Assembly (NCBI GenBank): GCA_024398135.1
Contig: CP073750.1
Span: 868,001-932,000, forward strand
DNA from: a bacterium SCSIO 12643
GTDB lineage: Bacteria > Bacteroidota > Bacteroidia > Flavobacteriales_G > Salibacteraceae
Direction: 5' to 3'
Length of the DNA stretch: 64,000 nt
Each line of letters starts with the position of its first letter. Position 1 is the first letter of the stretch. The translations under genes and the position numbers were made by a program. This document shows, in pieces, positions 57,682-59,562 of the stretch. The notes below the pieces were generated by a model. The model saw nothing but the letters and a program-made list of their open reading frames with translations, was not told the DNA's origin and did not search any database.

Positions 57682-58692
57682 TTATTTGATCAAATCCTGA
57701 ACATCCAAAAGACCTACAACTTTTCCGTGAGATACAACAATCAAAGAGTCCACCTTAGTCTCAGCAAAAACTTTCTGTGCTTTATATAACAACTCTTCTG
57801 CATCAATCGTTTTAGGTGCATTTAACCCTAAATCACCCATTTTCTTATTTACAGCCTCAGGACCTTCATTTTCCATCAATCTGCGTAGATCTCCATCGGT
57901 AAAAATTCCTGCTGGAGCTCCATTTTCATCTACAACACTAACAGCTCCATTTCCACCTGCTGTCATTTGAACTAAACAATCAGTTACAGTAGCATCCATT
58001 CCTACATTTGGATTTTTAGTACCCACCACATCTTTAACCTTTGCAGTCATAATGAATGTGTCTTGAGTAAACTGGTCTGTACCAATAGTTGTGAAATGGT
58101 TTTGCGTCAATTGCTTGATTAATTTCCATGGTACTGTCACGGTATGTACTCCTACATTAATCGCATTTCTTACATGCTCCACGTTACGAACAGAAGAGAA
58201 CATTATTTTAGTATCATATCCATAATATTCTACAGCATTCACACATTGTTCAATCAAAGCAATTGCATCATTACCTTGATCTTGTAAACGTCCTACAAGC
58301 GGGCATACATAAGTTGCTCCTGCTTCCATCGCCATATACGCTTGTTGTAATGTATATACCAGGTGGATATTTACCATAAAACCTTCGTCAGTTAATTTTT
58401 TACAAGCTTTTACACCTTCTAATGACATAGGAATCTTGTAAACGGTTTTATTTCTATCCAATCCTAATTTCTCCTGACGATATGCTTCTGCAATAATATC
58501 TTCAGCAGTATCACCTAATGCTTCAATTTGAAGAATGTCAACAATCTTTGACAATTCGATAATTGTTCCATCAATATCGGTAATTCCATGACGGTGCATA
58601 AAAGTTGGTGTGGTAGTTAAACCCGTTAAAAAACCAATTTGCACGGCCTCTTTAATTTCCTCTAAATCTGCTGAATCTAAATATAATTCCAT
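57682..58692 (-). CDS. Transaldolase/FSA-like barrel fused to KdsD-type CBS pair
   Basis: A 336-residue fusion. Residues 1-220 form a TalC/fructose-6-phosphate-aldolase-type barrel: Asp6 in LYLDSAD, Schiff-base Lys86 in VYKIPMS, and GTDQFTQD at the end. Against E. coli FSA the active-site Asn28 is Thr (LTTTP), and the positions of Thr109 and Tyr131 appear as His and Leu. Residues about 220-336 are two CBS domains containing APAGIFTDGDLRRL, wording typical of the CBS tail of arabinose-5-phosphate isomerase (KdsD/KpsF/GutQ); no SIS isomerase domain is present. kdsA lies just upstream, 36 bases away. A Kdo-precursor enzyme is inferred. FSA can join glycolaldehyde and glyceraldehyde-3-phosphate into arabinose-5-phosphate, which would make it a KdsD substitute. 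Confidence 0.85.
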   Translation of the reverse strand: MELYLDSADLEEIKEAVQIGFLTGLTTTPTFMHRHGITDIDGTIIELSKIVDILQIEALGDTAEDIIAEAYRQEKLGLDRNKTVYKIPMSLEGVKACKKLTDEGFMVNIHLVYTLQQAYMAMEAGATYVCPLVGRLQDQGNDAIALIEQCVNAVEYYGYDTKIMFSSVRNVEHVRNAINVGVHTVTVPWKLIKQLTQNHFTTIGTDQFTQDTFIMTAKVKDVVGTKNPNVGMDATVTDCLVQMTAGGNGAVSVVDENGAPAGIFTDGDLRRLMENEGPEAVNKKMGDLGLNAPKTIDAEELLYKAQKVFAETKVDSLIVVSHGKVVGLLDVQDLIK

Positions 58693-58728
58693 TTTGTTAC
58701 GTTTTCTAAATTAAATTTTACACGAGAT

Positions 58729-59562
58729 TTACTTACGGTATTTTACCTCTATTTCGTGCATTTCAATAAGGGGTTTTAAATATTCTTTTAATTGTGTCAT
58801 ATCCATTTGCGAAGCAGCATCACATAAAGCTTCGTTTGGACATGGATGTGTTTCTACAAACAATCCATCAACTCCGGCAGCGACACCAGCACGTCCCAAA
58901 ACATCCAGATATTGTCTGGCACCACCATTTGGATCGGCACTTGGAATTCCATACTTACGAATAGAATGCGTCACATCAAAAATCGTTGGGTAACCTGTTT
59001 CTCTTAAATGATAGAATGAACGCGGATCAACTACCAAATCATTATAACCAAAAGCGTATCCACGCTCGGTCAATAAAATTTGCTCATTACCTGTTGATTC
59101 AATTTTTGCAACCGGTTTTGTCATATTTTCAGGAGCTAAAAACTGTGCGTGTTTTAAATTCACCACTTTTCCAGTTTTTGCGGCTTCCACCGCCAGGGTA
59201 GTTTGCATCACCAAATATGCTGGAATTTGTAGCACATCTACAACTTCTGCAACTGGTGCAACCTGATCAGGATAATGAATGTCAGTTAAAATTGGAAAAC
59301 CGAAATCTTCCTTGACACGTTGTAAAATCTTTAAACCTTCATCCATTCCTGGTCCCATGTAATAATCCACAGAACTACGGTTATCCTTCTGGAATGAAGA
59401 TTTATAAATTAAAGGGATGTCCAACTCTTCGCTTACTCTCTTAAGTGTTTCAGCCGTGTCCATCATGATCTTTTCTGATTCGATCACACATGGACCGGAA
59501 ATCAAGAAAAGTTTGTCAGCTCCACATTCTACGTTGCCAACTTTAACCTTTTTAATACTCAT
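58729..59562 (-). CDS. kdsA: 3-deoxy-8-phosphooctulonate (Kdo-8-P) synthase
   Basis: A 277-residue cytosolic barrel enzyme joining phosphoenolpyruvate and arabinose-5-phosphate to Kdo-8-phosphate. Motifs in order: SGPCVIES, YKSSFQKDNRSS, AQFLAPENM, ERGYAFGYNDLVVD, FDVTHS and FVETHPCPNEALCD. Cys25 in GPCVIE marks the metal-dependent class (E. coli has Asn there). It is the first gene of a two-gene minus-strand unit with the transaldolase-CBS gene and has a -7 box 15 bases before its start. The product feeds lipopolysaccharide synthesis and, through KdnA and KdnB, probably Kdo8N. Confidence 0.96.
   Translation of the reverse strand: MSIKKVKVGNVECGADKLFLISGPCVIESEKIMMDTAETLKRVSEELDIPLIYKSSFQKDNRSSVDYYMGPGMDEGLKILQRVKEDFGFPILTDIHYPDQVAPVAEVVDVLQIPAYLVMQTTLAVEAAKTGKVVNLKHAQFLAPENMTKPVAKIESTGNEQILLTERGYAFGYNDLVVDPRSFYHLRETGYPTIFDVTHSIRKYGIPSADPNGGARQYLDVLGRAGVAAGVDGLFVETHPCPNEALCDAASQMDMTQLKEYLKPLIEMHEIEVKYRK

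Follow-up and report, generated by a model that had tools for sequence, protein, structure and literature searches.

A transaldolase-type barrel fused to a KdsD-like CBS pair as a candidate replacement for KdsD in the Kdo pathway

Kdo synthesis is described as starting with a SIS-type isomerase, KdsD or GutQ, which supplies arabinose-5-phosphate (A5P), and this was long taken to be universal. The phylogenetic argument in PMC3402364 follows the same logic: kdsA is present if and only if gutQ or kdsD is, and the part of that paper that sets this out has no third partner. A5P can also be formed by aldolases. E. coli FsaA joins glycolaldehyde and glyceraldehyde-3-phosphate (G3P) to give A5P, and the F178Y variant of TalB yields both A5P and ribose-5-phosphate (PMC9947464).

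Here, we describe an aldolase-like gene that seems to encode a second starting enzyme for Kdo synthesis. In the open-access literature, we found no description of this fusion or of a replacement for KdsD, and no paper that brings together A5P, transaldolase, and the CBS domain.

A barrel-CBS fusion beside kdsA

The window, by which we mean the whole stretch of DNA that was analysed (64,000 nucleotides of contig CP073750.1, from the bacterium SCSIO 12643), contains these features:

58729 to 59562, minus strand: kdsA of the fusion-linked clade (KdsA'), 277 amino acids, metal-type (GPCVIES), TIGR01362
57682 to 58692, minus strand: TAL/FSA barrel with a KdsD-type CBS pair, 336 amino acids; proposed A5P supplier for the Kdo pathway
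58055 to 58692, minus strand: TalC/FSA-type (beta/alpha)8 barrel, residues 1 to about 212
57682 to 58044, minus strand: KdsD/GutQ-type CBS pair, residues about 217-336, with GIFTDGDLRR

The fusion is a single open reading frame. Pfam finds just two kinds of domains in it: TAL_FSA (PF00923) matches residues 3-202 with 131 bits, and CBS (PF00571) matches the C-terminus in two stretches with 51.5 bits. No SIS domain was found by this search. The nearest profile for the barrel is fsa_talC (TIGR00875), and at about 159 bits the fusion falls below its equivalog cut-off (246). The CBS pair aligns to positions 155-267 of the kpsF/KdsD profile (TIGR00393), which is the CBS part of that profile. Its nearest solved structure is the CBS pair of an A5P isomerase (4o9k, 60 bits), and 3k2v and 3fna are also among the matches. 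The first-pass annotation had described a KdsD-type CBS tail with the GIFTDGDLRR wording, and a TalC/FSA-type barrel standing where the SIS domain would be, and both parts of this description hold. The AlphaFold model of the fusion (mean pLDDT 92) shows a transaldolase barrel, and it matches the transaldolase of T. acidophilum (3s0c) with a VIA Z of 29.5 and an rmsd of 1.6 (215 residues).

The fusion is neither a chance event nor a misassembly, because 17 of the 42 genomes in the order and 55 of the 295 in the class encode full-length versions of it (36-89% identity). Matches with names come from Flavobacteriales, Crocinitomicaceae, Cyclobacteriaceae, other Cytophagales, and Melioribacteraceae.

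The fusion starts 36 bp downstream of kdsA on the same strand. The upstream gene had been named as the fusion's partner, KdsA, and it does score above the cut-off for KDO8P synthases (325 bits vs. 314 for TIGR01362). More broadly, we read short stretches around 54 distinct fusion loci, and these contained kdsA on the same strand in 38 cases and kdsC in 45. We saw kdsB at 19 of the 54 loci, with many of the stretches ending before the position where kdsB would lie. The gap between kdsA and the fusion is mostly 2-120 bp, and the usual gene order is kdsB-kdsA-fusion-kdsC. The existence of an aldolase-CBS fusion beside kdsA is confirmed, and its pairing with kdsA, whose conservation across Bacteroidota had been proposed as a check, is part of this operon.

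Distribution of the fusion and of KdsD

The source genome is a single contig of 4.12 Mb (98% complete), and it encodes KdsA, KdsB, and the Kdo transferase WaaA. In this complete genome we found no KdsD, and its SIS proteins are GlmS, GmhA, and MurQ only. A genome-wide search for a SIS-CBS KdsD had been suggested as a test, and the result favours replacement. We considered an assembly gap as the cause of the missing KdsD and rejected this because the genome is in one piece and nearly complete. We also rejected another SIS protein as a hidden A5P isomerase because just those three are present; GmhA is above its own equivalog cut-off (TIGR00441).

We then counted the fusion, KdsD, and kdsA at two levels: the order, with 42 genomes, and the class, with 295, of which 211 have kdsA. 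These counts rest on profile searches of genomes that are partly drafts. Within the order, 17 genomes have the fusion, 7 have a full KdsD, and 1 has a SIS-only KdsD beside kdsA; kdsA itself is found in exactly those 25. None of the 42 genomes has more than one of the fusion, the full KdsD, and the SIS-only KdsD, and none of the 17 genomes of the order without kdsA has the fusion or KdsD. The SIS-only gene lies in G252 (L107:4846-6976), in the order kdsA, SIS-only KdsD (187 amino acids), kdsB, which puts a CBS-less isomerase in the KdsD slot.

Among the 211 kdsA-bearing genomes of the class, 47 have only the fusion, 158 have only KdsD or a SIS-only KdsD, 2 have both, and 4 have neither (P = 1e-39 for exclusion, Fisher exact test, which ignores relatedness). 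The two genomes with both genes (G501 and G521) belong to one genus, and they count against replacement. As a check on whether KdsA' and KdsD can coexist, we looked for kdsA in stretches around the KdsD or fusion genes of G531, G501, and G521, and found none there. The four genomes with neither gene are probably explained by assembly gaps, not by a third route. In G299, the match to kdsA is weak (E = 7e-54) and probably truncated, and the fusion is present in two genomes of the same genus (G336 and G366); KdsD is found in other members of the genera of G434 and G512; and G505 is 60% complete.

The sharpest case is G190, which has a full set of Kdo genes and the fusion. Its sole SIS protein at E ≤ 1e-5 is GlmS (for scale, the SIS domain of KdsD scores about 105 bits), so we rejected a hidden SIS-type A5P isomerase in this genome as well.

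Seven families (f1, f3, f9, f11, f45, f55, and f78) hold both types of genomes, and so does one genus (g129, with the fusion in G275 vs. KdsD in G276), which implies that the switch happened repeatedly. The switches probably came about by whole-module transfer. The kdsA-KdsD pair of G276 adjoins other surface-sugar genes and is not at the site of the kdsB-kdsA-fusion-kdsC operon of G275.

Family f48 contains divergent fusions (36-39% identity). We left these out of the counts because they have lost the Schiff-base lysine and R134 and are in genomes without kdsA. At five such loci (L108, L109, L110, L111, and L112), the CBS pair is kept, and the genomes have kdsB and waaA but no detected kdsA. 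These degenerate fusions adjoin genes for an M61 peptidase and for a protein similar to type I phosphodiesterases/nucleotide pyrophosphatases.

In genus g128, which is in the window's family, we saw a second replacement of the domain that precedes a KdsD-like CBS pair. Here, a ribulose-phosphate 3-epimerase barrel is joined to the CBS pair in a protein of about 334 amino acids (L122:3321-5964, minus strand; L124, L165, L167, L168, and L169). The gene is followed by one for a DAHP-synthase-like protein with a KPRTSP motif and by one for a KdsC-like phosphatase, and this arrangement is kept in the 6 genomes checked. Most of the g128 genomes with the epimerase-CBS gene lack kdsA, KdsD, and the aldolase-CBS fusion. 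The two that we tested (G264 and G273) have retained both kdsB and waaA, and this hints at another ulosonate route in g128. G262 has both the epimerase-CBS operon and a kdsA-fusion-kdsC operon.

Active sites of the fusion and of KdsA'

We aligned 63 fusions. D6, E57, K86, R135, S167, and R169 are kept across the alignment, including the Schiff-base lysine (K86, or K85 in FsaA) in all 63. Six residues of the FsaA pocket (N28, F57, T109, A129, Y131, and A165, with a manually entered E. coli FsaA sequence as the reference) are replaced by T, Q, H, C, L, and S, and these replacements are invariant in 63/63 fusions. In the window's fusion they are T28, Q55, H110, C130, L132, and S166. Two of the positions also differ between FsaA and TalC: 129 is Ala in FsaA and Ser in TalC, and 131 is Tyr in FsaA and Phe in TalC. 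The first-pass annotation had noted the retained lysine and the change of Asn28 to Thr, which the alignment bears out; it was right that the pocket had changed, but its count of two further positions was too low, as at least six differ.

Work on FSA assigns donor recognition to D6 and N28, tuning of the donor to A129, the holding of the catalytic water to T109, and proton shuttling to Y131 (PMC13259622). Given these roles, the changes in the fusion suggest that the half of the site that binds G3P is kept and that the half that binds dihydroxyacetone has changed. The alignment points to an active site that has been remodelled and not to one that has decayed. A rebuilt donor half is what we would expect if the donor were a two-carbon glycolaldehyde unit and the sugar a pentose 5-phosphate. 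The loss of T109 and of F/Y131 could hamper ordinary aldolase turnover.

The partner enzyme has changed too. KdsA proteins from fusion genomes form one clade in our tree (49 rows, support 100/100) on a long stem. The clade differs from classical KdsA around the aldose pocket (A47D, F103Y, R106M, K125H, Q188R, P190Y, and G192P, in A. aeolicus numbering). D47, Y103, M106, H125, R188, Y190, and P192 are found in 45/45 fusion-linked KdsA and in four further copies, two of which are not adjacent to the fusion. In the 29 classical (KdsD-linked) KdsA that we read, all have A47, F103, R106, K125, Q188, and P190. Arg106, which we take to be a ligand of the A5P phosphate that is contributed by the neighbouring subunit, is kept in both reference KDO8P synthases as well as in those 29, and is Met in all 45 fusion-linked proteins; in the alignment, 1t8x has Gly at this position. 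The Asn-Arg-Ser motif (N48, R49, S50) is present in 45/45 fusion-linked KdsA, and K124, H185, E222, and D233 are also kept, as are the metal ligands and the residues for phosphoenolpyruvate (PEP). We found KdsA' only in fusion genomes; for KdsD genomes, our KdsA sample consisted of the higher-scoring matches, so KdsA' might also occur alongside KdsD. From these residues, KdsA' appears to be co-adapted with the fusion and functionally bound to it, with A5P or an isomer as its aldose. Because R106 is lost and D47 and R188 are gained near the aldose site, the aldose may not be A5P. Two genomes, G385 (L149/L148) and G418 (L155/L154), have KdsA' beside the fusion and a classical KdsA elsewhere, and KdsD was not found in them. 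This combination mildly favours A5P, and the presence of classical KdsA in two fusion genomes also counts against replacement.

These changes in KdsA' bear on two related alternatives. Possibly, though we hold this tentatively, the locus is a self-contained ulosonate module, in which the fusion would be an aldolase-type pentose-5-phosphate 2-epimerase or would make an aldose phosphate other than A5P, with KdsA' retuned. If so, lipid A would be built on Kdo via new chemistry or on an isomer of Kdo. A stricter version, which we consider doubtful, is that the fusion makes another aldose phosphate (such as an epimer of a pentose 5-phosphate), that KdsA' joins it with PEP to give a Kdo isomer, and that KdsC, KdsB, and WaaA carry this on, so that KdsD and A5P were replaced together. 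The distinct clade, its invariant pocket changes in 45/45 linked copies and 4 others, and its restriction to fusion genomes, with both partners changed together, fit this. However, KdsA' keeps the Asn-Arg-Ser motif, the metal ligands, and the PEP residues and passes the KDO8P synthase cut-off, and classical KdsA without KdsD is found in two fusion genomes. Also, KdsB from fusion genomes keeps the residues that are conserved with E. coli KdsB (a manually entered reference sequence) and forms, by identity, no module-specific clade.

Improbably, the fusion could be a direct aldose-ketose isomerase that converts ribulose-5-phosphate to A5P by acid-base catalysis with H110 and E57, with K86 forming no Schiff base. 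This would fill the same pathway slot as KdsD and would give a role to the new invariant His at the T109 position, beside the catalytic lysine, but the retention of K86 in 63/63 fusions suggests imine chemistry, and on chemical grounds an imine at C2 of ribulose-5-phosphate has no simple turnover to an aldose. The first-pass annotation's alternative, an ordinary transaldolase under CBS control that balances pentose phosphates for Kdo while an undetected isomerase makes A5P, fits the TalC fold, the Schiff-base lysine, and the phosphate arginines, but we disfavour it as the least probable because the source genome has a separate TalC above the curated cut-off (283 bits vs. 246 for TIGR00875), because N28, T109, S129, and F131 are all invariably replaced so that the pocket no longer looks transaldolase-like, and because it leaves unexplained both the exclusion with KdsD and the lack of any SIS protein besides GlmS (at E ≤ 1e-5) in G190.

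Proposed chemistry and comparison with known systems

That the fusion stands in for KdsD is strongly supported: the source genome lacks KdsD, the exclusion is near-perfect in the order and the class, and the operon is conserved, all in line with the substitution that the first-pass annotation proposed. We infer its product, chemistry, and regulation. We think it probable that the fusion is a non-orthologous replacement for KdsD that makes A5P by lysine-imine chemistry and feeds a co-adapted KdsA'. The SIS catalytic domain would have been swapped for a remodelled transaldolase barrel, with the regulatory CBS pair of KdsD retained, and the fusion would feed KdsA' and then KdsC, KdsB, and WaaA, giving Kdo without any SIS isomerase.

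In the proposed mechanism, K86 would bind a pentose 5-phosphate as an imine through the sugar's aldehyde carbon (C1), and the phosphate arginines R135 and R169 would grip the G3P half. With T28, C130, L132, and H110, the remodelled donor pocket may suit a two-carbon glycolaldehyde enamine over dihydroxyacetone. Free glycolaldehyde and G3P might then be joined to give A5P. This route, which the first-pass annotation put forward, has a precedent in FsaA (PMC9947464), but it is one of several possible chemistries, and the scarcity of free glycolaldehyde in most cells counts against it. Or ribose-5-phosphate might be converted to A5P by epimerisation at C2, via retro-aldol and aldol steps or via proton transfer, which would be more economical because no free glycolaldehyde is needed. 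Aldolase-type epimerases exist elsewhere (AraD and FolB). A transaldolase in covalent complex with arabinose-5-phosphate is in the PDB (3upb, by title). Together with FsaA and TalB F178Y, this indicates that the transaldolase fold can accommodate A5P as a lysine imine and that exchange of ribose-5-phosphate to A5P via a glycolaldehyde enamine and G3P is possible. CMP-Kdo has been proposed as the ligand of the CBS pair in KdsD, and the CBS pair of the fusion probably senses it as well.

If the replacement is real, then roughly one in four of the sampled kdsA-bearing Bacteroidia rely on a class I aldolase fold for the A5P step. KdsD as a standard marker of Kdo capacity would miss these bacteria, and inhibitors aimed at KdsD would leave them untouched. 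Synthetic glycolaldehyde pathways lack an aldolase or epimerase of this type, for which PMC9947464 calls, and the fusion would be a natural enzyme that forms A5P in such a way. The fusion is also a clean example of a catalytic domain being swapped under a regulatory domain that is kept.

Among known systems, the KdsD/GutQ/KpsF A5P isomerases (TIGR00393) share the CBS pair and the slot beside kdsA with the fusion, with mutually exclusive presence, but the fusion has a TAL/FSA barrel instead of the SIS catalytic domain. The SIS-only A5P isomerases of Bacteroidota (as in the kdsA-SIS-kdsB locus of G252) are another departure from SIS-CBS in the KdsD slot; unlike the fusion, they retain the SIS fold. 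KdsA' resembles the metal-dependent KdsA of Aquifex aeolicus (1fwn) in its metal ligands, NRS motif, and PEP residues, and differs in its L7 loop, which is rebuilt, and by the changes A47D, F103Y, R106M, and Q188R. The barrel shares its fold, D6, Lys86, E57, and the phosphate arginines with TalC and FsaA (TIGR00875), but it is below the cut-off for that family, has the changes N28T, T109H, S/A129C, F/Y131L, and A165S, and carries a fused CBS pair. E. coli FsaA and TalB F178Y are class I aldolases of the fusion's family that make A5P from glycolaldehyde and G3P, but they are promiscuous or engineered enzymes used in vitro or in synthetic pathways, with no natural role in the Kdo pathway (PMC9947464).
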